A DNA stretch of 64,000 nucleotides, from the NCBI GenBank assembly GCA_001800135.1, contig MGUU01000016.1, forward strand, positions 248,001 to 312,000, in the 5' to 3' direction. This document shows positions 37,661-57,800 of the stretch, in pieces (the first letter of the stretch is position 1; the number at the start of each line of letters is the position of its first letter). Made by a program: the position numbers and the translations under genes. Below the pieces are notes generated by a model. It was not told the origin of the DNA, ran no database searches, and saw only the letters and a list, made by a program, of their open reading frames with translations. The DNA comes from Elusimicrobia bacterium RIFCSPLOWO2_02_FULL_39_32 (GTDB taxonomy: Bacteria > Elusimicrobiota > Elusimicrobia > 2-02-FULL-39-32).

Positions 37661-40600
37661 TTATTGAGATTCTGTAAAAGGATGGATAGATAAAACCTTA
37701 TGATCCATGTCCATGGCAGACCTAATAAGTTCGCTAAACGATCTTAATTTAAGACCTTGGCCAAAGAGATCAACGACCACATCCACTTCAATCACAAGCC
37801 TGAGCAGTTCCTTTGCATTAATTCCTTCAAATGACCAAAAGTCATTTACCTTAATGACTTTCAGTGTGTAATCTTTTACGCTTTCAATTTTTTTAACTTT
37901 TTCCAACGCTTCTTTTAATGAAAACTTTGGTCCTTTAGTTAAATCCCCTTTGGTTGGCTGATCAATGACAAAGAGTTTTTTTACATCTATCCTCCCCTTT
38001 AGCAAATTCTCTACCTCGCTTTTTTTCATTAACTGCCCGTTATCTGTAACCACTGCAAGGGCAACCATTTTTTTGCCATCCACATGCTCCATAAATCTTA
38101 TGATTCCATCAATTGAAAAAGGCAGATCTCCAATATTTACGACAAAAAGAACTTTTGATTCCTGAAGTTCATTCAGAAAAAATTTAAAAAGCGAGACTAT
38201 CTGGCCTAGAGCCCGGGAAACCTGCTCAATCGCAGCTGGAATCTTTTCTTCCTCTAAATTTTTAGGCGCCTGATTTAATAAACTGGAGACTTCTTGAAAA
38301 TTTTTAAGAATTCTTGCTGGATTGTTTCTTTTTAAATTAAATGGTTTGGCAACGTAGATAAGAGCATCTTTAGTTAGGCTCTGGCTCTTTAACCTATCCT
38401 CAATATGATCTAAGATCATGGGCAGCAATAAGGCTCTTAACCAATTAAAAACTCTATTGTTTGATTCTTTAACCAGCCAATCTGCTAAAGTTACTATCTT
38501 CTTTTCAGAATCTGTCAACTCAATATTCCCTATAAGAGGAAGTTTGCTAAAAACATTTTTTGCTAATTTATTGTTCTGGGACGCTAACCTATTCATCTCC
38601 TTCTGGCTTTTAGTCCATACTGTTATGTTTTCCCCATTCATTCTGCCAGTTAAATCATCATAAATATATTTTTCCAACTTAGGATTAATCACAACTGGCT
38701 CTTTAGTTTTAGAGAGCCCTCTGGCAAGAATGGCTAAAAAGAAATGACTGCCATAAATCAAAACTGCCCAGCCAAAAATTCCACCTGAAAAATAACTTAT
38801 CCATTCTAATGGTAAATAGAGTTGCGCATGGGAAGGTAAAACAAATCCAATCCCTGTCAATACCGCTGCGCCAACCATCCACGCTCCTGCATGCACTAAA
38901 TTAAAAGGTAATAACAAATCGTCCATAGGATTGTCTTCATCCAGATCTTGTGGATCATTCCCGAGCTCATCCATATCCTTCATGAAAGAAAAAAGAACTC
39001 CAATTTCTTGAAGACGGTTGTAAAGAGTTGGCTGCGCTTTAATGTCACTACTCCTCATACTAATAACAAGATGCACTTGTGGATCGTTTTTGATCAAATC
39101 AATTAAAGTTACAATATCTAATTGCTCAAAAATCTGCCAAAGATCCGCAAACCTTGTAAAGTTTAATTCAATAAATCCAACATGACTTTCTGCTTCAGGA
39201 CTATTGAGAGCTTGGCGCAAACGGTTCAGTGTATCGTAAAGTGAGTGAAAATCAAGATTAGAAATATCTAAGCGTTCAACTGGAGCGTTCTGCGGCATGG
39301 GTTCCTCATGCAAAGAAGGATTTGCCAGACTTTCCACAAATCTATGCATACCTTCATCCCTTTTTTTCGCTAAGGAGATCCCTATTGGAATTAATCTTTT
39401 AGCCGATTTGTCATAGGTGAGCTGCAAACCGGAAAGAAAACGAGCATAGGATTCTTGAGCGATCAAGAGAGCGCTAGATGCCTCTTTAAATGGGGTATCA
39501 TCTTCAGCCCTCATTCCTATTGCCTCATATCTTTTCTCAACCCCGAATAATTCATGAGAATATCTAAGTTCAGGATATTGTTCTTTATAACTCAAAGGAT
39601 ACCCCATTAAATTAGTTGCAAGCTCAATTAAATCCTGATCATTTAATTCTGCCACATTCAGATCGCGCGCCTTAAACTTTAATACCTGCCAATGCGCTCT
39701 ACCCTTACCACCCCAGATCTGCATTGCAGTAGGTTTAACTCTCATTAAAAGAGGTGGGGCAGTTACAAGCGCTATTCTGGGGTTTTTTATAGATGAGACT
39801 ATTTCTTCTAAAGAGCTAAACGAATTTACGAAATTTGCTTCACTATTGACTGAAGGCACATCCTCATCAATAATAAAATCACCATCCACGCCCTCGCCCA
39901 TTAAAATAAAGCGCAAAAGATCAGTTTCATTCACATCTAGGTCAGCCTTTGCTTTTTCCAGTTTAGTGAAAAAGAGTCCATCCTTTCCTTTCACTGGGAT
40001 TTTTACATTTTTTCCATATTTTTTCATCATCTTCTCAATCAAAGGAACAGTGCCAGATCCTCTGCCGCCTGCAATCACAATTGGAATTTTCTTTCCATGT
40101 TTCTGCTCAAATTCTTTCCAGCTTGCGGCAAATTCTAAATAAGTCGTTAAATAAGGAGAACCTATCACTACAAAAGCATCTGGCGGTTTAAAGGAAAAAT
40201 CATCTGACTGCGACATAAAATTTACTAAATTCTGCAGTTTTTGTTTAAAATCATTTCTAATTTCTTCGAATGGCTCGTTATCATGACTACGCGTTCCAGG
40301 CTTTCTTGGGAATGCTGCAAAAAAGAAGCCATGATCCTTTTCATCCTTATGGCTGGACAAAAATCCATCTGGCAGATGATCTGTAGTAGGATAAACTCTC
40401 TTGACCTGTGTTTTAGGATTTCCAAACATACTGGAAAGCCCTTTGATATGATTTGACCCTATCAGGAAATAAACATCTAACCGCTTTTTATGGGCTACTT
40501 CTCTAATCTCTTGCATATGTTCAAAGATGAATTTATTTCTCCAGTCAAGCGTTAAACTATTTGTCACATAATAAGTGGCCATAAAACTTCTATCGCTTAA

Positions 40601-43600
40601 GTATTTGTTTATCCAAAAAAAGTTGGGTTGAAGCTCTTTGGGTAATTTTCTTGCTTCTTCAGTAAGTTCAGTTCCAAGGGCTCTATATAATTCTCTCCAT
40701 GAATTGTTATCTCCAAACTGATCAAGGGATCTATAGAAATCGTTTGCTAAGTCTTTAAGGCTCAAATTAGAGTGTTTGGATAAATAGTCATTAATTTGAT
40801 CATATAAAACCTTCACTCCTTGAGATAAATTTTTACTTTCTAAATTTTTCCAAGCTCTTTTCAAAGATTTACTTTGCGTTAAATCGTAAATAATTCCAGC
40901 TTTAGCAAAAGCAATTTCTTCATTGACACCTGTAATAAAATATCCATATTTTAAAAGCACCCCTGAATAAGTATTTGCAAAATCATCCTCAAAGCCAAAA
41001 ATGTAACCTTTTGGAACTCCATAAGCATTGACAATAAACTCTTCTTCTCTGTCATCATCTCTTTCCACTCCTTCAATTCCAATTACAATTTCTCCCTGAC
41101 TTGCCCTTTTAATCAAGGCTTTTTGAAATAATTTATCTTCTTCTGATTTATGGTGCATGCCAATCAGGAATAAGTTTCTGCCTTGAGTCTCTTCAATTGA
41201 AATGGAACTCTGTTCAGATTGAAAACCAGCTGTCTGCAAAATATTCAATGTGCCTAACGAACCAATGATCAGTAGAATTGCCAGAATGGCTCTCAAAGTT
41301 TTCGGTATTTGAAGAAAATCAAAAATAATCTGAGTAGAATTTAAGTTCTGTCTTAAATAAGCGCTGAATTCGCCAAGGTTATTCTTTAAGTGAAGCAGTT
41401 CATGATCTCTTAATATCGTTTTTTGCAAAAATGCGGGTAAATAGTAGAAGGCGAGTAAATCAATATGAATAATATTAACTTTGATCTCTTCTGGATTTTC
41501 TCTATTGACATAAACAATCTTTTTTGAATCTTTTAAATCATCTATGAGAGTAATTTTATATTCGCTTTCAATCATTCTTTTAAAATTCTCAAGTGATTCC
41601 TTAAAAGAAACAGGAATCGTACTTTCTATAGTTTTAGCTAAGGAGGGTCTATCCCCTCTGCCCTCCACTGGTCCATCCCGCACTTTGTTCGCTCTTATCT
41701 TAGCTTGACGAATTTTGACTGCTTGCGCCGCCATTAAAGCAAAACCAATCATTGGAGGAACTATCAGATAAGATTTTAAAACTGCTTCCAGCCACACAGG
41801 CAGCCACTGATAATGTTTGGTAGAAAATTTAGCGTTTAAATATAAGAGAACTAAAACCGTTCCTATGCTCAAGAGAGAAGGAATCGTGCCAGCATTCTGA
41901 ATGAACCAAACCTGAAAAATAGAACTAAAAAATCCTACGCCCAATGACGTTAAAGCTGCAACCAGAGAACCGCTTATCGAAACAGGGGAGGGCGGGCTAT
42001 CGTTAGCAGAACTTTCAGATTTTTTTTCCTCTTTTTCAATAAAACTCTCTATATTTGATCTTAAAAGATTCAGCCTTTCTACAAGCAAATGTGAGAGAAA
42101 TAATTTTTTATTTTTAGCTCTCTTAAACTTTTCCTCATTTTCAGGATTATCAGCAATTGGATCCATGGAATAATGAACCAAACTGTCCCAATAGGTGATA
42201 TAAGCATTTTCATTTTTTGCCACCAAAGGATCTTGCAGTAAATCTAGAATCTTTCCTAGAACTAAGCGGTAATTAAAATATAAATCCGCATCTTTAAATC
42301 TCATGAGATTTAGGAGATTGGTTAATGCCAGCTCAGCGGTTTCTGGCTGTAAAGAACGCAGAAGCTGCACAAATGCTTTAAAATTTTTAGGAGAGCTAGG
42401 TGGAGATTTCCCGCCTAAATTGCCCCTAGCTCTTTGAACGAACTTTAGATCATCCTCCAGATGAAAAATTAATAAACCTTTAAAAGCAAAATAAATAGCT
42501 GTTTCTTTTAAGGTAGCGCTTCTCTTCCCCGACTTTGGGTAACTTCGGCCAAGCCTATATAAAGTAAAAACTTTTCTTAAAGATTCATTAACGGTTCTAT
42601 TTAAGCTTAATCTATCGTTTTCAAGTTCTCCCCCTAAACTTACATCCAGAAAAACCTGATGAATGGTGGCTAAAAAATGCGGGACAACTTGGATGTTCTC
42701 TGCTTCTAATAAATCAATGCTTTGAGGCAGAAGCGCGCCATCTGTCACTTCAATAACTGATTTTGCTTTAAGTTTTATTTTATTTCCATGGCGATCCAAG
42801 ATTTGTTTACCCTTAGATTTTATTGTTTCCTTTTCTCCCACTAAAATTAAAGCATCGCAGACCATTTCTAAAAGCGGCTCTTTGCCCTGCCTTTTTTGAT
42901 AAACTATTCCATGAGGATGAAATTGTAAAGCCTGCTCCAATGTATTTGTCCGACGATAATGAATCAGCCGAGCGATCTCCTCTTTAGTAAATCCTTCTTT
43001 TTTTGTAACGCTGCCATTCCCTAAACCAATGCCAATAATTTTATAGCCATTATTCAGTGTCATTTCCGCTATTCTTTCTGCCAAAGGGCTAAGCTCGCTG
43101 ATAACTATATGCCGAGGCTCATCCTTTTTATCTGGATTTATGGGCAAATCTTCCTTAACCCCTTCATCCCCAAAAAGATGCTTTAATATTCTTACAATTC
43201 CCCTGGCAATAGAACGATTCTCAATATCTCTATCCACACTATGGCCAAGCATCAGTTCATTGGAAAATGTAGAATTCATTTGAGGAATCTCTTCTTCTTT
43301 GTCCAGCATTTCCTGTCTTAAGTCAGAAGAAAACTCTATCCTGCCGGCATTGCCTTGAATCTCTTTGTGTAAAAGCCCCACCTGCAAAGCTCTTTTAAAA
43401 AGAATTTTTTCTAACGCGGCTCTTATGACTAAAGAATCAGCTTCTGGCAAAGCAAGCATTCCAGCCATAATTTTTCCAACAGGAGAAGTCCCTACCAGAG
43501 CCAAATGATAACCCAGATATCGTTTTTGATTTTTCTCATCCCCTAATAGAATAGGATAAACACTTAAATCCCCAAAAAGAAAAATATCCCTGAGTAAAGA

Positions 43601-46600
43601 ATCACTAAAACCAAAACGTGATAGAATCTCGCGATTCTCTTCTATCCAAGGATGAGAAGTCAAGGGCTGCTCCTGTTCAAATTGTTGAGTAATTCTCTCC
43701 TTAAATTCTTGTACCTCTTGATTCATCCGTTCATTTTCTCGAACATAAAAAACATCAGACAAGAGATTAACTAACATTTTTGTAAATTTATAGGTTCGCG
43801 TTCTCTCAGCTGTATCCCCGGCGCCTAAATGAACTTCAACCCCGGGACCATGATAGTCTAAACGCAAACTAAACCAACTCCCATCTTTAAAATAAATCCG
43901 CAAATAGGCGCGGTCATGTTCAATCCTAATAATCTCTTTACCCCCTAAATTACCCATGGACAGCCGAGCAATGCCTTCTATGATCACTGGGTCGCTTAAG
44001 AGCTCTTCCATGCCATTTAAAACCTGAGGCTTAATATAAAATTCATATTTCTCAATCTTGTCTGTGATGGGAAGCGGGCGGGTTTGCTCTAAATTCGCAA
44101 CAAAATTTCTAGCAAATTCAAATAGAATAAACTGCTCCGCGTATTCTAAAATGTAAGAATGAGCTCCATCAAAATTTAATTCCCTTTCAGCTTTATTTCT
44201 AGGATGGTTCATAATCCTATAGATCTCCAGTTCCCGATGCACCATTCTTTCAATCATTTTTTCTGGCTCATCCCCTTCTAAATTCATAATGGCTTTTAAA
44301 AAATCTTTGTGAATATAAAAAACAGCTTTGCCGTTTTCTAAATTAAAAAATGGCGCTAAAATAAAGGTGGCTGCATTTTTAAGTAAATCATCGTTGTCAT
44401 GCGCCTTGACCTCAACTAATTTAATTTCCTCAAGTCCATAAAAATCAAGGTTATCATTGAATCTTTCTTGAATATATTCACGATAATAGTTTTCATTCCT
44501 TTGTAAAAGTATGACGCGATGAGAGCCTGAAAGTAAATTCCATAAATAATTCTTTATAAATTTAAGTAAAATTGTTTTATTAAACATATCAATTGAAATA
44601 AGATCATCCAAAGTTAAACTTAATATAAACTGCTCCACTAACTCAAAAGGCAACTCAGAATCAGGATCTTTTTTAGGGAGCGCTTTCCCCTGAATGCCTT
44701 CCTCTCCAAAGGCAAGATCAATCTCGGAAAAAAATTCAAGAAGCGTTTGGTTAAAAACTTCCCTTTTTTTTATAAATCTATGTTTTTCCAGCAGCATTAA
44801 AACAAGTTCAACTATTCCGCCGGAATGCAGAGCCTGTATGGCTTTAACGCTCGCATTCACAATTCCAGAATCTTCTAACTTCTTTGATCTTTCTTCTATG
44901 AATTTCGCTAAAGACTGGTCTAGCCCTTGAAGCTCATCTAAGAAAAATTCTGGGTTCTGGAAAAAAGTGGTGTGAAATGAGTGCAAAGATTTTAGATATT
45001 TATCCAAATCCGCTGGATGAGCATTGAGCAAGGGATGATTTAATTTCTCTAAAATCCTGCTTAAAATAAGGCGATAATTTAAGTAATTGGAAGGCTGATC
45101 TTTTTTCATTAAAGAAAAAAGATTTTTTAAAGCTAAACTGTTTTCTGATTTTTGGAAGGCCTGAACCAATCCTTTAAAATCCCTTGGAACTCTAGATTTT
45201 TTCCTTAAAGATTTTAAAAATCTTTCAAAATCAATGGGCTCAATTCCTTTAAAACTTTTTGCGGATTTTTTTAAAGGAATTTGAGGCTCAACTTTTCCGC
45301 TTAAAAGAGCCTGTATCCACTCACGTTCCTTTTCCATATTTAATTCTAGAACTCCTCGAACCGAAGCAAGAACAGCGCCCTCTTTTAAATAGAAACCCGA
45401 GTCTTCAACAGATTTTCCATCAGCTTGGGCAAGCTCTCGGGCTGTTGATAAAACTTTAGCCGCGCCGATTTTAATTCTTCTTTCAAATTCTGTTTCCCCT
45501 AAAGAACTTAAAGAAAGAGCTTTCATCTCCCCAATGCGGGCTAATAAAGGAGGAAGTACAGGAACTTGGGTTTTTAAAATTTCCTCCGCAGCTGGAGTTA
45601 ATCCATCATTTAAATCTAAAACCATTCTTGTTTCAATGGGGATGAGGTTGCCTTCGGAATCAGTTAAATGGTCAATAGGAGCGCCCTCGTCCGCTAAAAC
45701 CACTAGCTCCGCATTTAAAGTAAAAATCTTGTTCCTATCCTGATTATTTAAAACTTTAATCGCATTGGAACTCTTCAGGCGAGCGATCCCCTCTTCTGTT
45801 TGGAGTTTCTCGATTTCAGCCTTTGTAAATCCCTTTTCTTTAACTAGAATTTCCTGTCCAAGATCAATGGCTACTACTCTTGCTTTATCCCATCTTTGGA
45901 TCGCGGCATATGCCACAGAACGAGCTAAAATTCCTGTTCCTCGAATTGCGATTTTATCCGTCTCATTTTTTTTGCCAATCGCCCCTAAAAAATAATCTGT
46001 TAGGAGAAATAGACCTTCCCCAATCTCTCTTGAGCTTTGCTCTAAATCAGTCAAGCGGTTAATCAGCAATTCCTTTTGAAAAGCAAAAAGCAGGCTATTC
46101 ACTTCATCCGGTTCAAAAACTCTTCCATCTTTGGAAAATAACTCTATGGCGCCAATCCTTTTTTTCATGGGGAGAGAAAGAAGCCCGGCTTGTAAAGACC
46201 TTCTTAAAGCTGTTTCTTTTAAAATTTTCTGAATTAAACTTTTAGAAAGTTCGGAAGCGGCAATGGCTCCTGAGACAATGGGCCCAAACATATTGGGGGA
46301 TGACTTAATGGAGGTAGAATAACCTTTAAAATCATCATTTAACCGATCTTCCTCAATCAATGTCTGCGAAAATATCTCCTTAAGCGCTGCCTCGCTGTTT
46401 GGGTACTCTGAAAGAGATTGAACTACCTCTTCAAATTGAGCAATTTCATCAATTAAAGACATGGAATAACCTAAACGATGAGATGACTTTTTTAACTCTT
46501 TTTTGAGCTCTCTTTGAGGTCGCCTTGCAAGAGAACTTAACCAAGGTTCTTGCACACCCTGAAGAGCTTCAGACCCTGTGTCAAAATCAAGCTCATCATA

Positions 46601-48124
46601 AGGCTCATCCTCCAAAATTTTTAGCGTTACTTTTTTAGCAAACTCTAAAAGAGCCTCTTGATCTTTTTCTGTTCGGATTTTCTGGTGGGCTAAATCAAAC
46701 TCTATGCCATCTAAAAGATCAGACTGAATTTTTAGTTCCCTATTCACAAGCGCTTGAATCATCCTTTCTTGTTCGCTTTCCTCAAGATGCATCAATTCCC
46801 AAAGCAACCTTCTATGCAAAAAAATCTGAGCTTGACCGCGTCTGTCAATACTAAAATGGGCTAAAACGAACCTTTTATCGCTCTCAATTAAATCCCCACT
46901 GTCATAAACAAAAATTTTAAATGATCTAATTTTATCCGCGATTGGTGCGCTGTTACTTTTAAGATTTTTCAATTTTTCCTTAAAATGTTCTCTTATCACT
47001 TTCTTTAGTCCTTCGTAATAACTTTCATCCGTCATTTGATCGGATGTAAGAATAATCGCGAAATACTTTGCCAAAAAATTAGGGAGAACCAAAGGAGCTA
47101 TTTTATGCAGACTTTTTATTTCCAAATCCGTAAGGTTTAAAACTCCTTTTTCCATGGTTGCAAAACTTACCTCTGATTCTGACGTCTTAAAATTTAAAAC
47201 TCTTTCCAAAGCTTTAAAACCATCTGTAATAAACTCATAATAATCTTCGCTGCTTAACTTAAGCTCTGCTTTTTTTAATAACAACATGAAAAGATCTACA
47301 ATCGTACCCTCATGCAGGGCAGATAATGCCTCTACCGCTGCTTCCGCAACGCTTCTCTTTCGAGTTCCAATGCGCGCTCTTTTCCCATTCCCATTAGCAT
47401 GAAACTGACTTTTTGAGGCAATCCGATTAGCTGAATTGTTCTCTTTCCCTGTCCTTTTGTTAGATCGCCTTGCTTGTCTTCTATTTCTAGCTGTCTCACG
47501 CATCAGTCTTCCTTGTTTTAAATCTCTCTTAACTCCTGTCCCAAATTGGAACTCGTTAAAACGAGATAAATCTTCTTCTTCTGCCATGCGAATCATGGGA
47601 AATCCTTGAGAGCTAAAAGGCATCCTTGCCAAAATTGAAATTTTTCCTGCACTGAAAGTGCCCGGCTCTTGTCTTAAGGTTCCTAAAACCGCTTTTAGCT
47701 CATCTGTAAAATTTTTCGAAGCAACTTTCATCTTTTCTTTATTCTTCGTTCCAACTTCAATTATGAAATTGATCGTATGACCATCTTCCTTATAAACTCC
47801 CAAGAAAGAAACATTCCCATCTTTTTCAATTGGCCCCTTGAAGCTCAAATTTTTTAAGATAACGATCACTTCCTCAATTTCATAAGAGAATTCCTCGTCT
47901 TTACTAAATGTTTTCTTCAGTTTCTCTAAATTCTCCAAATAATTTTCTAAAATATGATCCGCTCTTTCTGCCTGCTTTGATTCTGATTGTCTTGCGGAAA
48001 CAAAAGATTGTTTTGCGGCAATAAAAGAAGGGCTGATTACAGACAATAAAAATGACCCTGCCACGCCAATAGCTGTGGCCTTTAAAGTACTTCTATTTTT
48101 TTTCTCAATCCAGAATCTAATCAT
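37661..48124 (-). CDS. Giant gene C: 3,487-residue secreted/membrane polyprotein with duplicated dead-dehydrogenase modules
   Basis: The start is placed at ATG 48124 (MIRFWIEKKNRSTLKATAIG, core VAGSFLLSVISPSFIAA|K). It matches the leaders of giant genes A and B, whereas a longer in-frame extension to 48199 would overlap the promoter. Order: signal peptide; Ser/Arg/Lys-rich region; two long tandem modules (about 47,345-44,960 and 44,865-42,170), each with a helical head, a degenerate Glu-dehydrogenase Rossmann domain and a common helical tail. Then come two membrane segments and an HExxH module (about 42,000-41,290), a membrane segment, a TraB-like domain (about 41,200-40,390) and a YdcF/DUF218-like domain (about 40,200-39,640). 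The chain ends with a membrane hairpin (about 38,920-38,720) and a C-terminal alpha/beta domain. The parts at 42.0-41.3 kb are paralogous to giant gene D. No single function can be named. Confidence 0.9.
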   Translation of the reverse strand: MIRFWIEKKNRSTLKATAIGVAGSFLLSVISPSFIAAKQSFVSARQSESKQAERADHILENYLENLEKLKKTFSKDEEFSYEIEEVIVILKNLSFKGPIEKDGNVSFLGVYKEDGHTINFIIEVGTKNKEKMKVASKNFTDELKAVLGTLRQEPGTFSAGKISILARMPFSSQGFPMIRMAEEEDLSRFNEFQFGTGVKRDLKQGRLMRETARNRRQARRSNKRTGKENNSANRIASKSQFHANGNGKRARIGTRKRSVAEAAVEALSALHEGTIVDLFMLLLKKAELKLSSEDYYEFITDGFKALERVLNFKTSESEVSFATMEKGVLNLTDLEIKSLHKIAPLVLPNFLAKYFAIILTSDQMTDESYYEGLKKVIREHFKEKLKNLKSNSAPIADKIRSFKIFVYDSGDLIESDKRFVLAHFSIDRRGQAQIFLHRRLLWELMHLEESEQERMIQALVNRELKIQSDLLDGIEFDLAHQKIRTEKDQEALLEFAKKVTLKILEDEPYDELDFDTGSEALQGVQEPWLSSLARRPQRELKKELKKSSHRLGYSMSLIDEIAQFEEVVQSLSEYPNSEAALKEIFSQTLIEEDRLNDDFKGYSTSIKSSPNMFGPIVSGAIAASELSKSLIQKILKETALRRSLQAGLLSLPMKKRIGAIELFSKDGRVFEPDEVNSLLFAFQKELLINRLTDLEQSSREIGEGLFLLTDYFLGAIGKKNETDKIAIRGTGILARSVAYAAIQRWDKARVVAIDLGQEILVKEKGFTKAEIEKLQTEEGIARLKSSNAIKVLNNQDRNKIFTLNAELVVLADEGAPIDHLTDSEGNLIPIETRMVLDLNDGLTPAAEEILKTQVPVLPPLLARIGEMKALSLSSLGETEFERRIKIGAAKVLSTARELAQADGKSVEDSGFYLKEGAVLASVRGVLELNMEKEREWIQALLSGKVEPQIPLKKSAKSFKGIEPIDFERFLKSLRKKSRVPRDFKGLVQAFQKSENSLALKNLFSLMKKDQPSNYLNYRLILSRILEKLNHPLLNAHPADLDKYLKSLHSFHTTFFQNPEFFLDELQGLDQSLAKFIEERSKKLEDSGIVNASVKAIQALHSGGIVELVLMLLEKHRFIKKREVFNQTLLEFFSEIDLAFGEEGIQGKALPKKDPDSELPFELVEQFILSLTLDDLISIDMFNKTILLKFIKNYLWNLLSGSHRVILLQRNENYYREYIQERFNDNLDFYGLEEIKLVEVKAHDNDDLLKNAATFILAPFFNLENGKAVFYIHKDFLKAIMNLEGDEPEKMIERMVHRELEIYRIMNHPRNKAERELNFDGAHSYILEYAEQFILFEFARNFVANLEQTRPLPITDKIEKYEFYIKPQVLNGMEELLSDPVIIEGIARLSMGNLGGKEIIRIEHDRAYLRIYFKDGSWFSLRLDYHGPGVEVHLGAGDTAERTRTYKFTKMLVNLLSDVFYVRENERMNQEVQEFKERITQQFEQEQPLTSHPWIEENREILSRFGFSDSLLRDIFLFGDLSVYPILLGDEKNQKRYLGYHLALVGTSPVGKIMAGMLALPEADSLVIRAALEKILFKRALQVGLLHKEIQGNAGRIEFSSDLRQEMLDKEEEIPQMNSTFSNELMLGHSVDRDIENRSIARGIVRILKHLFGDEGVKEDLPINPDKKDEPRHIVISELSPLAERIAEMTLNNGYKIIGIGLGNGSVTKKEGFTKEEIARLIHYRRTNTLEQALQFHPHGIVYQKRQGKEPLLEMVCDALILVGEKETIKSKGKQILDRHGNKIKLKAKSVIEVTDGALLPQSIDLLEAENIQVVPHFLATIHQVFLDVSLGGELENDRLSLNRTVNESLRKVFTLYRLGRSYPKSGKRSATLKETAIYFAFKGLLIFHLEDDLKFVQRARGNLGGKSPPSSPKNFKAFVQLLRSLQPETAELALTNLLNLMRFKDADLYFNYRLVLGKILDLLQDPLVAKNENAYITYWDSLVHYSMDPIADNPENEEKFKRAKNKKLFLSHLLVERLNLLRSNIESFIEKEEKKSESSANDSPPSPVSISGSLVAALTSLGVGFFSSIFQVWFIQNAGTIPSLLSIGTVLVLLYLNAKFSTKHYQWLPVWLEAVLKSYLIVPPMIGFALMAAQAVKIRQAKIRANKVRDGPVEGRGDRPSLAKTIESTIPVSFKESLENFKRMIESEYKITLIDDLKDSKKIVYVNRENPEEIKVNIIHIDLLAFYYLPAFLQKTILRDHELLHLKNNLGEFSAYLRQNLNSTQIIFDFLQIPKTLRAILAILLIIGSLGTLNILQTAGFQSEQSSISIEETQGRNLFLIGMHHKSEEDKLFQKALIKRASQGEIVIGIEGVERDDDREEEFIVNAYGVPKGYIFGFEDDFANTYSGVLLKYGYFITGVNEEIAFAKAGIIYDLTQSKSLKRAWKNLESKNLSQGVKVLYDQINDYLSKHSNLSLKDLANDFYRSLDQFGDNNSWRELYRALGTELTEEARKLPKELQPNFFWINKYLSDRSFMATYYVTNSLTLDWRNKFIFEHMQEIREVAHKKRLDVYFLIGSNHIKGLSSMFGNPKTQVKRVYPTTDHLPDGFLSSHKDEKDHGFFFAAFPRKPGTRSHDNEPFEEIRNDFKQKLQNLVNFMSQSDDFSFKPPDAFVVIGSPYLTTYLEFAASWKEFEQKHGKKIPIVIAGGRGSGTVPLIEKMMKKYGKNVKIPVKGKDGLFFTKLEKAKADLDVNETDLLRFILMGEGVDGDFIIDEDVPSVNSEANFVNSFSSLEEIVSSIKNPRIALVTAPPLLMRVKPTAMQIWGGKGRAHWQVLKFKARDLNVAELNDQDLIELATNLMGYPLSYKEQYPELRYSHELFGVEKRYEAIGMRAEDDTPFKEASSALLIAQESYARFLSGLQLTYDKSAKRLIPIGISLAKKRDEGMHRFVESLANPSLHEEPMPQNAPVERLDISNLDFHSLYDTLNRLRQALNSPEAESHVGFIELNFTRFADLWQIFEQLDIVTLIDLIKNDPQVHLVISMRSSDIKAQPTLYNRLQEIGVLFSFMKDMDELGNDPQDLDEDNPMDDLLLPFNLVHAGAWMVGAAVLTGIGFVLPSHAQLYLPLEWISYFSGGIFGWAVLIYGSHFFLAILARGLSKTKEPVVINPKLEKYIYDDLTGRMNGENITVWTKSQKEMNRLASQNNKLAKNVFSKLPLIGNIELTDSEKKIVTLADWLVKESNNRVFNWLRALLLPMILDHIEDRLKSQSLTKDALIYVAKPFNLKRNNPARILKNFQEVSSLLNQAPKNLEEEKIPAAIEQVSRALGQIVSLFKFFLNELQESKVLFVVNIGDLPFSIDGIIRFMEHVDGKKMVALAVVTDNGQLMKKSEVENLLKGRIDVKKLFVIDQPTKGDLTKGPKFSLKEALEKVKKIESVKDYTLKVIKVNDFWSFEGINAKELLRLVIEVDVVVDLFGQGLKLRSFSELIRSAMDMDHKVLSIHPFTESQ
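39640..40200 (-). other. YdcF/DUF218-like domain (gene C)
   Basis: DAFVVIGSPYLTTYLEFAAS, PIVIAGGRGSGTVPL, a conserved acidic helix region (LRFILMGEGVDGDFI) and IALVTAPPLLMRV follow the DUF218 order. That order is a first strand with a Gly motif, 'xIxxSGG', an acidic residue in a loop, then 'xxVTxxxHxxRA'. The terminal His is not conserved. Family members are membrane-linked proteins of uncertain, possibly cell-envelope, function. Confidence 0.5.
40390..41200 (-). other. TraB/TIKI-like domain (gene C)
   Basis: NLFLIGMHHKSEEDK (GxxH), IVIGIEGVERDDDREEEF, YGYFITGVNEEIAFAKAG and VYFLIGSNHIKGLSSMF (second GxxH) reproduce the two GxxH motifs and the central Glu/Gly block of TraB/TIKI/GumN-type proteins. 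TIKI members are metalloproteases; bacterial TraB members are mostly uncharacterised. It follows a membrane segment (AILAILLIIGSLGTLNI), which would place it on the exported side. Confidence 0.6.
41290..42010 (-). other. Membrane hairpin plus HExxH metallopeptidase-like module (gene C)
   Basis: Hydrophobic segments (LVAALTSLGVGFFSSIF, LLSIGTVLVLLYL, VLKSYLIVPPMIGFALMAAQ) lead to the conserved RANKVRDGP. Then comes IHIDLLAFYYLPAFLQKTIL-RDHELLHLKNNLGEFSAY. HELLH (41,390-41,404, His about residue 2241) is a zinc-binding HExxH, and the Glu seven residues on (GEFSAY) could be the third ligand, as in M78-like gluzincins. The same module occurs in giant gene D at 57,690-58,350. Confidence 0.6.
42170..44865 (-). 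repeat. Tandem module 2 of giant gene C, with degenerate dehydrogenase domain
   Basis: The head, SVKAIQALHSGGIVELVLML, matches VEALSALHEGTIVDLFMLLL of module 1. The middle, FKRALQVGLLHKEIQGNAGR, matches LRRSLQAGLLSLPMKKRIGA. The Rossmann part (43,130-42,440) has IVISELSPLAERIAEMTLNN, VIEVTDGALLPQSIDLLEAE and VVPHFLATIHQVF, then ATLKETAIYFAFKGLL. This parallels IVEGANGPTTEDADKILAEK, VLPDIFANAGGV and ITLRQAAIRLALKRRL of the intact glutamate dehydrogenase in gene D. The glycine-rich dinucleotide loop is lost. The tail, NLLNLMRFKDADLYFNYRLV, matches NLFSLMKKDQPSNYLNYRLI. Confidence 0.65.
44960..47345 (-). repeat. Tandem module 1 of giant gene C, with degenerate dehydrogenase domain
   Basis: This is a module of about 800 residues duplicated immediately downstream. 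Its Rossmann part (45,970-45,330) reads DKIAIRGTGILARSVAYAAI, VLDLNDGLTPAAEEILKTQV, PVLPPLLARIGEMKA and YLKEGAVLASVRGVLEL. It aligns with glutamate dehydrogenase over the NAD domain and the final helix. GTGILA keeps part of the nucleotide loop, while the ANGP and NAGG motifs are gone and no catalytic N-terminal domain with GGAKG is present. Activity is not expected. Confidence 0.65.
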
Positions 48125-48847: not shown

Positions 48848-51800
48848 CTAAGCCTGGATTGCAAAGAGGACCACCCTTTCTTTAAAATCTAAGAGTGGAT
48901 TTAGAGACCTGCCTTGGATGGTGATTCTATTGCCAATGCGCTCAATGCCTTCACCCATTGATCCCATTTGTTTAAAGAGAAGATCAATGACGGCATTTTC
49001 TCCTTCAAACACCACTTGCGATTCAGATTCTAAAAGACCAATCATTAAGCTAACAATAGTTTTTAGACGATCCCATCTGCGCGGATTGCTAGTCACTACC
49101 TGAAGTGAAACATCTCCTAAACCCTTTATTTTTTCTTTAACTTCTAGCGGGGTCTTGGCTGACAAAATCCTATGTTTAGGAATTCCAAGAGCTTCGCTCG
49201 CCTGCTCTAGAAATACCAGCTCATCTTCTTTACTGATTCCCTTAACCCCTTTTTCCGCTAAATTTAATACAGGAATGAAATACGCATTTTTATCTGCTTT
49301 AACTTTTTCAATCTCTTCAAGAATAATCTCTTGGGAAAGTTTGGAGATTGTGACTTTGCCAGTGTTGGGTTCTACTTCCACAAAGGAGGTAAAATCAAGC
49401 GCAAGCACATTCGTCTTCTGGGACTCATTTATGGTTTGAGCTAACTCTCCAAAAATTTTGCCTAAAGGAAGAAGGAAACCCTCCTTTAATGGCGCAAGAG
49501 TTTCTTGAGGCATGGTCTCTCCATACAACTCATTAATTTTCTTAGTCACTAATAGAAGTTCCTGCTCTTCTGGTTCAAAAGCAGATAAGCTGTTCTCTAA
49601 ATTAAGCCAAGTAGTTTGCGCTCTGCCAAACAAAATTTGGGAAGATTTCTCTAAAGATTTCCCAGGATGAGAAAAAATAGTAAGGGTATTTTTTAAATCA
49701 GGGGCTAAGATCATTAAAGCGGTTTGGATGTCTAGCTCTTGTTGAATAATGGTTTTAGCTGAGAGCTTGTTTAATCCTTTACCCAGCTCCGCATTGAAAA
49801 GTAATCCCCCTCTTACTTCTGCCATAGGCATGAGTTGTCCCTCTGGAGTTTGAGTCATTCCCATGGGAACTACAGGCATAAGAATTCCAATAAAATTATT
49901 TGTAAGGGAAGGATGAAGCAGCGCTCTTGACTCCCCAGCAACGTTTTGCGTTACAATCTCTTGATTATCATTTGTTAACTGGTTTAATTTTTGATCTGGT
50001 AAAATTCCAGAGACTAAGGAATAGGATAGAAAACTAGAAGGTAAAGAGAGGGCAACTGAAAGCGCCATTGAAATCGCTGCTTTTCTTAAAACTGGCAACG
50101 GACTAGATTCTCTGCCAAATAATTTAGAGTTTTTGGCAAATAAGTCCTTTAACTTCCTTAAAAAATTAAATGGTGTTGGACCTACAGGTTCACCTAATCG
50201 TCTTTTTAAAGCTAAGCGAATAGCAGCTTGTCTTAAAGTGATGTTGGGTTGAGAGGAAACTATTTCAAATAAACTTTGAGCTGATTTGTCCATATATCTT
50301 TTTAATTCTTTTTCAGTTTTTTTAATTCCCCAAGCCATATCATCTGTAGATTGGAGCATTTCAAAATAAGAGACTGTGACTCCGCCAGCATTGGCAAAAA
50401 TATCTGGCAAAACATACACACCTTTTTCCGCAAGAATTTTATCCGCATCCTCTGTGGTTGGTCCATTAGCCCCCTCTACAATCATTTTTGCTTTAATTCG
50501 ATGAGCATTCTCCTTTGTAATCACATTTTCCATGGCTGCTGGAATTAAAATATCAGCGTCCCACTCTAAAATATCTGTAAAATTAGCTTCTTCTTCCGTT
50601 CTAAACTTTACCCCTTCTAAAACTTCTTCTATACCCACCCAACTAGCTCCATTCTCTGACCTATAAGAATGCAGCACCTCAATCTCCTGCTCAGTAAAAT
50701 TCCCTTTTTCCTTATAAACAACAACTTTAATCCTCTTTTCAACTGGTTTTCCATTCACTTGAACCTTTCTTTTCTCAGACTCTCCAATTGCCACAACCTT
50801 TAAATTACTATTTTCAATAGCTAAAACAGATTTAGCTGTGGGATGGCCAACCTTGCCAAATCCCTGAATGGCAACTCTATTGCCAATCTCTACCCCTTTC
50901 TTAGTTCTTAAATAATCTAAAAGAGAAAGAGCAGCTAAAATAACACCCCTGCCCGTAGCATCCTCCCTGCCTTCAATTCCAGCTTTATCTAAATGCTTTC
51001 CTGTAACAGCTCCAAAAATTGCAGTATGTTCTTTATCTAATCCGCCGTAATAATTCATAGAAACAAAACGATCTAAATAGGGAATTTTAGTAGGATCATT
51101 TTTTATCTCTTCCTCTAACTCCTCATTTAAAGCCAATTTATTTGGATGCTCGCTAAATAATTGCGGATAGATTCCTCGGTGCCTTTGCGGGGACAGCCAA
51201 TTACGGATATATTGGTCTAGATAATAAGACATCATCTCAGCTCTTGTTCCATAATCAGTTGCTGGAACATCTATGTCTGGACCAATCGCTTCTCTTTTAT
51301 AAAGCTCATTGACATACCCGCGCATTAAAAGCGCTTCTTCCCTGTCGGATAAACGACTCTCCACCATCACTCCTCCTTTAGCTCCGCCCAAAGGCAGATC
51401 TAAAATCGCTGTTTTTAATGTCATCTCCATGGAAAGAATAGCGATCCCAATCTTCTTAACAAACTCGCTCCAGCGTATTCCGCCTTTAAAGATTTGATCC
51501 GAGCCATTTCTAAAATGTTGGATGCGGTAACCTTTAAAAACTTTTACTCTTCCTGAATCCATAGAGACTGGGATCTCAAACTCAAAATCATTTTCCACTT
51601 TTAAAAGTCTTTTAATTTGTTGAGGAGAATATCCCGCTTTTTTCGCTTCATCCACAACTGTTTTAATTGGACCCTCTACCGGCAAAGACATTGCCGGAGC
51701 AAAACGAAGCGATAGATTTTTAAAACTCTTTTTTAACTCTCTCAAGCCAAACTGCAATAAGGTAAAACTAGATTTGGCAATCCAGATAAAAAGTGTTTGC

Positions 51801-54800
51801 GCATTAGGTTTTTTAAGTAAATGTTGAATAACAGGGAAGCGATTTAGGAGAGGATAAGAACCAGCATTGATTTTAAGCCTGATGAGTTCATGGTGATCAA
51901 TGATCTGTTCTATTATATTCTCTCTTAACTTTCTAAAACTCACATAATCCCAAAAATACCTCTTATCCGAAAAATAGTTTTTATCCGCATCAGAGAGACG
52001 ATCATAAAATTTGTCAAATGCTCTTTCATTGTTTAAAGAAAAAATCCAGGCGAGCCACGGCGCTACGCTTAAATCCTGACCATTCACAGTAGCTTCAGGA
52101 ACATTCTCCCAATGACCTAAGGCTGCATCCACGCTTACCGTAACATTTGAACCAGCGCCCAATTGCAAGATTCTATTTAAAATAATAGTTTCTGACTTAT
52201 CTTTATCTAAAGTATTTAAACGGGAGGTAAAACGCCTAGCCTCATATCTGGTAAATAAAATTTTCATAAAACGAATTTGATGATAACTTCTTCCATAAAT
52301 CTTAGCTGAAGCGAATCCTAAACTGGCAAGTATTAAGCCAAAACCAGAAATGGTAGCTTCTATCACTGGATATAAGGGCAATTGAGTGATTCCAAATAAT
52401 CCAAGCAAACCAAAAACAAAGGCAGTTATGCCAATTCCAGCAATAAGATATGAAAACTCAACTGCCAACCGATTATCTCCTAATTTAAATGGCAGGGCTA
52501 TGGTCTCTGGAATTCCAAGACCAATGGTTCTTGGGTCAATGTCAGGATCCTTTTTATTAGGTTTCTCTTTATTTTTGTTATCCTTAATCTTTCCTTTAAG
52601 AAGCCTCAATGGAACTGTTGGAAAATCTTTTTCTATTTCTAATCTATCTTTTAATGCCTGATCTCTTTCAGTTCCCACACGATAAGCGAATTCATAAGAA
52701 GGCAATCCTTTATTCCCTAGTTCAGCCCATTTCTTTATTGCCCATAGATATTGGGATTGAGCCCTTTTGATTAAAACCCCAGTAGAATCTTCATCAAGAG
52801 TATTGATCACATCTGTTCCAGTTTTAGGTTTATCAATAAATAAGGGACCGAGCTTAGCTTGATGATCCTTATTCATCGCGTTCCACATCTCATTATTTAA
52901 AACTGAATCAAAAAGCAGATCCCCAGAATTGAGTCTCTTTGACTTTATATTCTTAAAAATCCAACTGACATAACCAAATCCTTTTTTGTCTAAATATTTT
53001 TTCCAAGCTTCTTTATCTTTTGCGTCAACACCGGCTTTGACCATATCATTCATTGGATAGATAATTCTTGTTCTCTTAGAAGAAGCGGATGCGTCTAAAA
53101 GAGCTAAAGAAGTATCTAAATCCCCAAGCGCTGCTTTAGGATTAAACCCAACTTTCTCAACTAGATCCATTCCAAAGAAACCTAAGATAGGCTGCAAGTA
53201 AAATAAAATGTCCCCACCCAGCTGTTCAGCAGGAGTTATCCATCCTAGCCGAGAAGGCAGGAAACTATCGTTCCCAGTAGGGAAATCTGGGTAAAGTTCT
53301 GTAATAAAATCTCTCCGATCCCAAAACTCTAATGAATCTTTTACATTCTTTCTATTAATTGCATCCCCTCTTATATAAGTCATCTCATTAATGCCAATAT
53401 GCAATCTCCCATAACGGTCTCGAACACTGCTCGTTCCTTTTTTGTGCTCAGAATCTGTGGTTTCATATAGAGCAAATTCCGCGTCCCACATCTTTGAAAT
53501 TTCATTTCTTCTATAAACCACATCCAATGTTCCGCGGTCTGTTCCAGCATAAGCATGAGCTGCTTCTAAAGCATCCGCAACTGTTGGCGCGGCAAGGGAA
53601 TAGAACGGATACTGATTGCCAAACATCAATATCTTTGCAAGAGTTATGCTTTCAGCAGGAATAAATGGAGGAAGGATCCATGAATCTGTAATATAGGTCA
53701 ATCTAGGATTTTCAGGATAATTGAGTTTAAGAGGTCCAAGATCAAAACTCTTTGTGCCATCGTTCGCTTCGCTAAAGGTGATCTTAAACCCAAGCATGGT
53801 AGGTTCATCTGAAGGAGCTTCAGCAGCCGCATCTTCACTTGGCGCTGCATCTTCTGTTTTAGGCGCGCTTAATTTTTCTATTTGACCTTGGGTTCCTAAA
53901 AGCGCATTATTCCACACAGGTTCTCTTAGATAATTATTCCAAATCATATTGCCCCAGAGATAATCTGCGTAATGCTGCGCATCTACTTTTAAAGAAAGTT
54001 CTGCGGGGTAGAATGAACCAGCCAATTCCTTATTAACTTCTGATAAAACAATTGAAAAACCTTTGGCTGCTTTTCGAGCAGCGCGCGACGATGGAGTAGA
54101 AGAAACTCGCGGTGTTGGTCTAGGAGCAGGTTTAGTTCTAACCTTAACTCCTTGTTTAGTTTCTTGCTTATGCAAACTCATAAGAAAATTTAAAAAAGCT
54201 GCTTGGTTTTCCACGTTTGTATCTGGCTGATCCACATAAGGATACACATGTCGCCTCATGCCGCCGATTCCTAACATGTGCATGCGATACCTGCCAGTAT
54301 GATACCTCATGGCTGCTTTTAACAATTCAGAAACTCTGGGAATTTCACCTTTCCATTGAGCTAGTCCAAAAGCTAAAATCGCATTGCCATAAGGACCCAC
54401 TTGATGATCTTCACTCACCATGCGATACCCTTTTTTAGGAAGTTTTTTACCATCAAATTTTCTGCCATCAGGCAAAACTCTTTGTTCTTCCGGTGGAGGA
54501 AGATCAAAATATTTTGTGATTCCCCAAAATTGATAGTTCAGGGGATGTACCTGCACCCAATGTTTTATAAAAAGTTCAACTGCTTGTTTGTATCTAATAT
54601 CCCCTGTACGGTCATAAGCGATCTTTAATAACCAAAGTTTAATGCCTTGGTCATCCAAATTGTTAGCGCCAGCTTCTTCTGAAGGTCTGTTAATCAAAAA
54701 TGCTCCATAGTTTGGCAAAGAAGGATTGGTAATTTGTAATGAGAGGATATCATCTCCTAACTCAATTAAATCATCCAGATATTTTTGCTCCCCAGTTTCT

Positions 54801-57800
54801 TCATAGGCCCAATCAGCAAGATAGCCAAGGTAACCATAATATCTCATAATTCCAAAAGAGGGCATAAAATTTGTATTTTCACTTAATAATTTCCAATGCT
54901 TTAAAGAAAAATCCACTCCTTTTAACGCGTCAGTCCGATTTTGAAGATACTTTTCTGTGTTGCCAATCTTTTTCATGGTTTTTGCGGTCTTAATCAACGC
55001 AGTGGTTGCTCCTGCGCCCGCATAGTCTGTTTCTATGGAGAGAAAACTTTTTACATCCCCAATCACATCCTGTACCCATTTAGGAGCCAAATACTCTAAC
55101 TCATCTGGATAAAGATTAGTGTTCTTAGAAGCTAAAGAGCTCCAGATCACATAGGATTCGATCTCCGGACTTTTTGCGCTTTCACCCGGCTTTAGCACTC
55201 TGTTTGTTTGAAATTCTATTTGAGCTTTTTCCCAGCCTTTGTGATTTGTTCTGGCAGGGTCAGAATTATAAAGACGAATACGATCTCCCTCTTTAAATTC
55301 TTCAGGAATGCGATAAATCACTGTTCTATCAAATCCATAAAGAACCATATACCGCGGCGCTTTGCCCTGTTTTTTTAATTTTAGATATTCGTCAGTAAAA
55401 TCCTTCCATTGACCTTTAGGAAACTGATCATACTCATGCCCATAAAAAACCGGTGAACCTTCCATGTAAAAACCAATGGGTAAAGAGATCTGTTTATAGT
55501 CTGGGCTCATGCCATACTGATTCTCTTTCATGTCGTTTCTGGAATCGCTTAAATGCAGGTAATCCGCAATGTTCATGACCATTTTTTTCAGTTTAAAAGG
55601 CTCTGTGCCTGTATTGTGAACTTCATTGTAAATTTTAGCTACAGGAATCCCTCTATCCACACCTACAAAATCCTTAATTAAAACATCGCCGCCCAACCGT
55701 TTCCAATCTCTAGCCACTAAAAATGAATCTTGGAATATCTTGAAAGTTTCAGGAACAGTGTTCATGTCAATACTAAAATGATATTGTCCTTCATCCACAG
55801 CTTCCTTTTTTCCTTTATTAAAATTGTTAAATTCTTTGTTCCAATATTCAATTTCAGTTTCAAAAGCTCCCCATGTAACACCAGGAATTCTTTCATAACC
55901 TCTGCGAATAATAATCCGAACATGGTTAAAACAAATCGAGATAAGAGAATTATCAATAAAAACATCTATCCTGCCGGTATTTTTATCGTATTCTGGAACT
56001 AACATCATGGCAAATCCTTTTTTCATATAAAAAGCTCCAGACTGTGTTAAACCCTCTTTATGCATCCAATCCGATAAAACTAAAATAGCTTTTAAAGCTT
56101 CCTGATCTGGATTACCTTGTTCAATGGTCGCAATATAATATTCATTGATAGCGCTCAGCCAATCCATGTCTGAACCAAACCATTGGTTAGCAAACCAGTG
56201 TTTTACATTTTCTATATTCATCCAATCCGCATAAGGGCCTTCAGTTAAGGTTCTAGGATCAATTTTGCTTTGATGTGTTTGCATGACTACCTTTACTAAA
56301 AACTTAGAGTATTTCATCACATCCCCTTTTTTTAACGCGGACATTGCATCATCATAAGTTTTAAGGAAACTCTCTGCTTTGGCAAGATGCTGTGTGATCT
56401 CCTCTTTAGTTTTATCAGAAATTTTTACTTGTCCAGAAAAAATAGTTCCTTTGGAAACATTAGAGAAAACCATTCCTGCTCCCTGCTTATTCACAGCCGT
56501 GCCAAACAGAGGTTTTATGGAACCAACTTTCCATTTAAACTGGTTCATCCCTTTCTCTATATTTTTTCCCACAGCAACCACAGGATCAAAAAGATGAACA
56601 TCTTGAGAGCGCACCAAATCACTGGAAACATCCCCAGTAAAAAATTTAGGATTCATGGTTTTAGGGAAGGCTTGGAAATAAGCGGATTTCTCATCATAAG
56701 TAATGACCACTTTATATCCATCTGTTTCAAACTCTTCAATTTTTTGCCAGCTTTGTCCTTCAATTGGCGCCATGCCAACTGATAATTTAAGAGGAGTTTT
56801 AAGAGGTTTAATATCTTCATTATCTTTTTGTGCTTTATCAAAAAACGAATAGCGCAAAAATGAAACAGGAATCCCTGGAAGCAATCCTTTATGTTCATGC
56901 ATATTATAAGGAAGATTCGTTAACTTATAAACAGCTTCTAAATCCTGCGGGTTGCTTCCCCCTTGCTGCGTGATACGCAAAAGAGGAATGACCTCATCTC
57001 CGGATTCTAAATTTAAACTTTTAGCAATATGTTCATTCTTTAAAAAGTCCGGCAGTTTTGCGTAAGATTCTATAAGGATATCTTTATGCTCTTTGGGCAA
57101 AAGAATATCGCCAAAAGTTTTGGCATTGCCCACGCCAAAATCAAATGAGTTGCCTGCTCTTCCCCACCAAGCTAGGACTTGTCCGTTTGTATTAATCTGC
57201 CGATATTTAGGCAAGATCATGGCGTATCGTTTAGGAGATTTACTGACTGGATCTATCTGCTCCCAGATCAAAAGCCTAAATTCAGTAGGACCTTTATAGA
57301 CTTCACTTTTATCTAAAGAGCCTTCTTTTAACCATTTTCTAACCCAGCCTTTTACTTTTGGATTAGAAGAATCAAGCTCAAAAAATCTAGGAGGATCCCC
57401 CAACTCTTTTTCCCAGACATCGTTTAATATCTCTTCATATAGCCCTTGATTTAAGAAGGGTCCGTAAATGGCGCTATAATTTTTAAAATCCTGCAGACTA
57501 TTAGGAACCAAACGAACATTAGGAATTTGGCTTTGAGTTTGCTGCTGCTGGGCGTTTGGATTAGTTTGAGCCTGAGCTGACAAGGCTAATGGAGTAAAGA
57601 GCGAGAACAATTGCATCATTACAATGGGAATAAGGATTTTTGCTCTTTTTTTGTAAAAAGTAAAAAAGGGAGTGTAGGGAGCTTCTGGATTTTGAACCTG
57701 CGATACCTTTCTAGGTTCAAAGAAAAGAGTAAGAGAATTTAAAATTTGATTGGCATAAGCATAAACTTCATTTGAGGTTTTAAAATGTGTTGTCTCATGG

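Follow-up and report, generated by a model that had tools for sequence, protein, structure and literature searches.

Genes C and D of the Elusimicrobia genome studied here encode giant proteins with a common module of approximately 220 residues, in which transmembrane segments and a basic loop precede a small core with an HExxH motif and a downstream Glu, and a hydrophobic segment follows. The module appears to represent a zincin-like, membrane-tethered family that, as far as we have seen, is found only in giants and matches no named family. We regard it as very probable that the HExxH site is a real site of the zinc-peptidase type. With less assurance, we favor the reading that the module is a zinc peptidase active at the membrane surface on a nearby giant-derived or neighboring polypeptide.

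The homologous module of genes C and D

The window (the whole 64,000-nucleotide stretch that was analyzed) corresponds to positions 248001-312000 of contig 16 in a 2.52-Mb genome, and among its frames on the minus strand are A (10,729 aa), C (a 3,512-aa frame) and D (5,050 aa within the window). C and the window part of D contain one HExxH each, HELLH at 41404 and HETTH at 57799, both preceded by ILRD, and the residues quoted for these positions in the sequence-only reading proved to be exact. Composition shuffles predict approximately 0.04-0.09 HExxH for each, so a single motif in C or in D could be due to chance alone. The homology over the module is not due to chance, because the BLASTP alignment of C 2045-2294 and D 1858-2095 has 36% identity over 260 aa (E=1e-32) and covers the transmembrane segments, the basic loop and the HExxH core. 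The claim of a homologous module is therefore borne out. The accompanying statement that the surrounding residues have drifted is correct with regard to divergence, but it understated the likeness, as approximately 220 residues can be aligned. The segment singled out in that reading, window 41290-42010, corresponds to C residues 2064-2304. The features of the two genes are as follows.

37661..48124, minus strand: gene C, approximately 3,487 aa; open frame with a probable ATG start at 48124, beginning MIRFWIEKKNRS
41711..41983, minus strand: three hydrophobic segments, C 2073-2097, 2103-2123 and 2139-2163 (hydropathy; they align with D and the C5 paralogue described below)
41639..41710, minus strand: basic loop of C, RQAKIRANKVRDGP..., after the third hydrophobic segment (charge count; suggests a cytosolic core by the positive-inside rule)
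41318..41590, minus strand: HExxH core of C, with predicted helix, strands, HExxH helix and Glu helix (alignments; low-confidence AlphaFold2 secondary structure)
41390..41404, minus strand: HELLH, C 2266-2270, preceded by ILRD (motif invariant in the 14-member core alignment)
41369..41371, minus strand: Glu2277 of C, putative third zinc ligand (HELLHLKNNLGE; +7 after the second His; invariant in the 8-member alignment, Glu or His in the family)
41222..41317, minus strand: hydrophobic segment after the C core, C 2295-2326 (hydropathy and charges; a secreted-looking region lies downstream)
48848..64000, minus strand: gene D, the C-terminal 5,050 aa; the frame extends outside the window to approximately 11,491 aa
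58049..58309, minus strand: hydrophobic segments of the D module, D 1898-1984 (hydropathy)
57716..57979, minus strand: HExxH core of D (alignments; secondary structure of an AlphaFold2 core model with pLDDT 51)
57785..57799, minus strand: HETTH, D 2068-2072, preceded by ILRD (motif search)
57767..57769, minus strand: Glu2078 of D, putative third zinc ligand (HETTHFKTSNE; +6 after the second His; alignments)
57575..57643, minus strand: hydrophobic segment after the D core, D 2120-2142, then QAQ (hydropathy and sequence)

We note in passing that LALSAQAQ (D 2138-2146, window ~57575), a signal-peptidase-like AxA sequence, closes the hydrophobic segment behind the D core, and that C has no such sequence at the matching place.

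A second genome of the same genus (G001) encodes orthologues of C, with HELLH, and of D, with HEAAH, in an order identical to that of the window. Gene C is 85% identical to its orthologue, with a dN/dS of 0.26 for the whole gene, 0.26 for the peptidase core, and 0.08 to 0.52 for other stretches. By these ratios gene C is evidently a maintained protein under purifying selection and not a decaying frame. The module is not more constrained than the rest of C in this regional comparison; support for the HExxH site comes from deep comparison, and at the distance of this orthologue the module is not singled out.

Distribution of the family

A third paralogue, with the motif HEHRH (E=3e-47 to C), is encoded on contig 5 by a frame of 6,962 aa (the C5 giant), and the same giant contains two further HExxH sites of the wider family, HEKNH and HEQNH. 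The exact motif pattern has two matches in the genome itself and none in the reversed control. One scan of genome contigs had the same-genus MAG as its sole match, and the 29 pattern matches in viral contigs included no relative.

When a profile of 14 diverse cores was compared with 341 genomes of the phylum, it gave 43 matches in 23 of them. All 43 lie inside open frames of 987-13,472 aa, the shortest frame being on a 4.3-kb contig; across the 341 genomes there was no match in a small stand-alone protein, although strongly diverged small relatives could escape the profile. HExxH is present in 43 of 43 matches, a retention that is partly ascertainment because the profile weights HExxH heavily, so that decayed copies would be missed. 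In the fetched loci, 45 members (profile E below 2e-5) were distinguished from six chance HExxH sites (E above 0.1). HERNH in the C5 giant, and HEMLH and HELVH in L012, were rejected from the family by profile score and taken to be chance sites; the weak matches of a first profile to small frames, which involved TM segments only, were taken as noise. Overall, twelve giants contain 20 HExxH motifs compared with 1.4 expected from shuffling, and several giants carry two to six sites. HExxH is absent from the entire frame of gene A and from another frame of 3,582 aa.

These distributions bear on the suggestion of the sequence-only reading that the giants are self-processing polyproteins, in which several mature proteins would be released from each giant by its own module, in the manner of viral proteases. 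A protease-type site in all matches, found exclusively inside long frames, is what such a scheme would lead one to expect, as are the giants with two to six sites. BlaR1 is known to cut itself in cis (PMC9834060), the compact zincin Wss1 self-cleaves (PMC4559962), and the post-translational integrity of giants of this kind is called unclear in PMC12057145. However, gene A, with its 10,729 aa, and the 3,582-aa frame have no HExxH, no cleavage site was identified, and the predictions put the core in the cytosol but the greater part of the chain outside. It is also hard to picture ordered cutting at multiple sites with one module per 3,500-11,500 aa. On balance, we think it unlikely that the module serves this purpose.

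A related consideration comes from another giant of this genome, 13,472 aa long, in which two M48 domains (PF01435) score above the Pfam cut-off in the scanned parts. Because these M48 domains are genuine, embedded zinc peptidases do occur in the giants of this genome, and because M48 zinc peptidases are also found inside giants, a protease domain in a giant need not mean self-processing.

The putative zinc site and its third ligand

In a 14-member core alignment, whose members are 17-82% identical to C, the invariant residues are the two His and the Glu of the motif, together with one Tyr and one Gln from the helix that follows. Among the eight closest members, the downstream Glu does not vary either. 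Across 45 copies, a Glu follows the second His at +6 in 18, at +7 in 4 (including C, whose Glu is one residue beyond the common spacing), and, in another 4, beyond an insertion at +14 to +28. In an HEALHLxGLPH subfamily (7 of the 45 copies) the +6 residue is His, which produces HExxHxxGxxH; up to about one quarter of the 45 copies lack a clear third ligand in the customary position.

Glu and His are both zinc-binding residues, and their exchange at one position is the pattern that a third zinc ligand would show. In the HELLH of C, the two His would be the other zinc-binding residues and the Glu would be catalytic. The proposal that selection acts on a site of the metallopeptidase type finds support in the phylum-wide matches, all of which have HExxH and most of which have Glu or His in the third position, and the motif is retained in orthologues and in copies from other genera. 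Loss of HExxH in orthologues, which the sequence-only reading had named as a refutation, was thus not seen. The family adds an unassigned HExxH group with Glu/His exchange at the third-ligand position.

A different possibility is that a zincin fold has been kept for its shape or for metal binding, with peptidase activity absent. The family is without assignment, some copies are without a clear third ligand, and the giants also hold fused enzyme-like domains of unclear role (glutamate dehydrogenase-like), all of which would suit a structural remnant. The Glu of HExxH, the general base, does not coordinate the metal. Yet all copies have it, including those as low as 17% in identity to C, and this argues against a remnant, which we consider improbable.

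AlphaFold2, run with four sequences in each case, produced models with pLDDT 45 for the whole C module and pLDDT 51 for the D core, which are too poor to call a fold. The low-confidence order of elements, namely a helix, two or three strands, the HExxH helix and a second helix, could match that of a compact zincin. Foldseek with these two models returned nothing significant (all rows E>=1.2). Selecase, which is a minimal metallopeptidase, formed the second row for the low-confidence module model (4qhg), with a top probability of 0.16 and a non-significant E=2.0. At the sequence level, there was no Pfam, NCBIfam or PDB match for C, D or the 14 core members, including no Pfam or NCBIfam match to M56, and the M48 profile matched one of the 14 members only, at E=0.45.

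Membrane context

In 32 of 34 copies, the motif has a hydrophobic segment that ends 50-160 aa upstream of it, compared with 21% of random positions in giants; one of the two exceptions is truncated by a contig end, and the 34 copies are related, so a binomial significance is overstated. These counts support the membrane tether that had been proposed. The last upstream hydrophobic segment is followed, in C, D and their close copies, by a stretch rich in Lys and Arg, from which the positive-inside rule predicts a cytosolic core. The sequence after the post-core segment is mostly neutral or acidic in the same proteins. The N-terminus of gene C is signal-anchor-like, a property in common with the C5 giant and D. 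Together with the charge pattern, this predicts the order outside, three helices, cytosolic core, helix, outside, so that most of the giant chain would be outside and the HExxH core would be in the cytosol.

The N-termini of C, D and the C5 giant have the signal-anchor-like form MI(R/K)FWIEK(K/R)N..., and that of A reads LIKFWTDMKNRSWLEST; a single leader seems to be shared by the separate giants.

The predicted topology is relevant to the idea that the giants are surface weapons or digestive complexes, with the module cutting the proteins of other cells. Giants of related phyla have been interpreted as surface weapons or as cellulosome-like structures (PMC12057145, PMC10066038). Against such a role, the charge pattern predicts an inside location for the core of C, D and their close copies, and the tight tie to a hydrophobic segment fits a membrane-near substrate better. 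We judge an enzyme of attack or digestion to be very unlikely.

A possible role for the module

The reading that we favor, a zinc peptidase active at the membrane surface, can be described as follows. The comparisons show the homology, the conserved motif, the association with hydrophobic segments and, among the matches, the restriction to long frames; zinc binding, peptidase activity, topology and substrate are inferred. In the family at large, an upstream hydrophobic segment or bundle would be followed by a short core with an edge strand, the HExxH helix and a second helix that gives the third ligand. This ligand would usually be Glu, or His in one subfamily, and a further hydrophobic segment would often come after the core. 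In C and D, the core would be cytosolic, held between a bundle of approximately three helices and one more helix, with the large flanking parts outside. The substrate might then be parts of its own giant or of neighboring giants, clipped in cis or in trans. Alternatively, the module could serve in quality control of membrane-threaded giant chains. A more sweeping version of the idea is that the giants of the phylum are polyproteins, or membrane-threaded chains matured by clipping, that are cut in cis or in trans by their own embedded, giant-only zinc peptidases; this we would regard as doubtful.

In this part of the tree, giant proteins that run from thousands to tens of thousands of residues are common, and the literature that we read leaves open whether they remain single chains. 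A recurrent module that looks catalytically intact provides a concrete handle, with one residue to mutate and defined neighbors to watch. Whether the giants are cut up or stay whole is now open to experimental questioning.

Further observations on the giants

A complete-looking glutamate dehydrogenase (PF02812 and PF00208) is fused near the C-terminus of D (window 50201-51586, minus strand), and its Lys (GGAKGG) and Asp (ATDYGT) motifs appear to be retained. C contains two partial, diverged glutamate dehydrogenase-like stretches, one at window 42668-43084 (minus strand) and one earlier, within an apparently duplicated N-terminal half. In its upstream part, outside the window, D has a stretch of approximately 50 residues, QKRAEYVARETTQTIFRIPF...KDKVIGLEFKTPQG, that occurs identically twice, 355 residues apart (residues ~3137 and ~3492 of the fetched frame, contig 16), and is evidently a recent internal duplication. 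The D-region orthologue of the second genome (G001:C10 60845-95880) consists of three overlapping frames (2,914, 805 and 8,039 aa), compared with the single frame of the window genome; the cause may be a sequencing error, a frameshift or a real split.

Gene A has four motifs that resemble those of type IV prepilins, GFSLPELVPALAIF, GFTLPELVPALAVF, GFALPELVPALSIF and GFTLLETVGTIAILF, located on the minus strand near 25473, 21333, 17454 and 11688, respectively. Each of them heads a hydrophobic segment, and a prepilin peptidase could in principle cut the protein there. Flp-pilin-like motifs, GQAMTEYGLIVGVLAL and GTSTVEYGLILAAI, lie at hydrophobic segments in the C5 giant (residue ~6521) and the 13,472-aa giant (fetched part, around residue 11710). 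The latter giant, on contig 16 at ~113632-150000 (minus strand), has six HExxH sites in the fetched part, and LysM-like repeats were seen by eye near the last of these.

Comparison with known systems

The proteins that contain the module resemble the giant open frames described for Omnitrophota and Elusimicrobiota, which are very long and have many membrane segments and few annotated domains (PMC10066038, PMC11573180, PMC12057145). Huge proteins are abundant in Elusimicrobiota (PMC11573180). Term searches of PMC10066038 and PMC11573180 found no mention of peptidases. The module is undescribed in the passages on giants that we examined.

Among peptidase families there are several points of likeness. 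The spacing HExxHxxGxxH of the HEALH subfamily is reminiscent of metzincins (HExxHxxGxxH/D), and Gly is at the corresponding place in 21 of 45 copies; however, the third residue is mostly Glu in the family, including C and D, and there is no sequence match. The M48 peptidases (HtpX/Ste24/Oma1-like) are HExxH enzymes associated with the membrane, and a different giant in this genome carries genuine M48 domains. In M48, however, the third ligand is much further downstream, and kinship was rejected on profile-profile comparison with the giant's own M48 copies (hhalign probability 1%).

The minigluzincins, with selecase, and the WLM family, with Wss1, are similar in size, having a core of approximately 100 residues. 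In Wss1 the third ligand is His125, 6 residues after His119 (PMC5557861), the same +6 spacing as here. The present module differs in that its third ligand is mostly Glu and in that it is membrane-tethered and located inside giants, and it is without detectable sequence similarity to these families.

BlaR1 and MecR1 (M56) offer a parallel to the predicted architecture. BlaR1 has an N-out/C-out topology, with an HExxH protease between membrane helices and a large outside domain past the last helix (PMC9834060), and by hydropathy and charge prediction the order of parts is the same in C and D. It could be imagined that the giants are receptors of this type, in which outside domains sense a signal and switch on the cytosolic zinc protease, which then cuts a separate cytosolic target. 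This would account for the order of parts, but the topology of C and D is a prediction, there is no match to M56, and no repressor-like partner gene was noticed beside C or D in an unsystematic look. Furthermore, the third ligand of BlaR1, Glu242, lies 37 residues after His205 (PMC9834060), as opposed to +7 in C and +6 in D, and the module here is in mid-chain in proteins of thousands of residues. A receptor role is, in our estimation, improbable. For the module in general, BlaR1, with its similar membrane plan and its autocleavage in cis, is the best mechanistic precedent, as distinct from a demonstrated relative.
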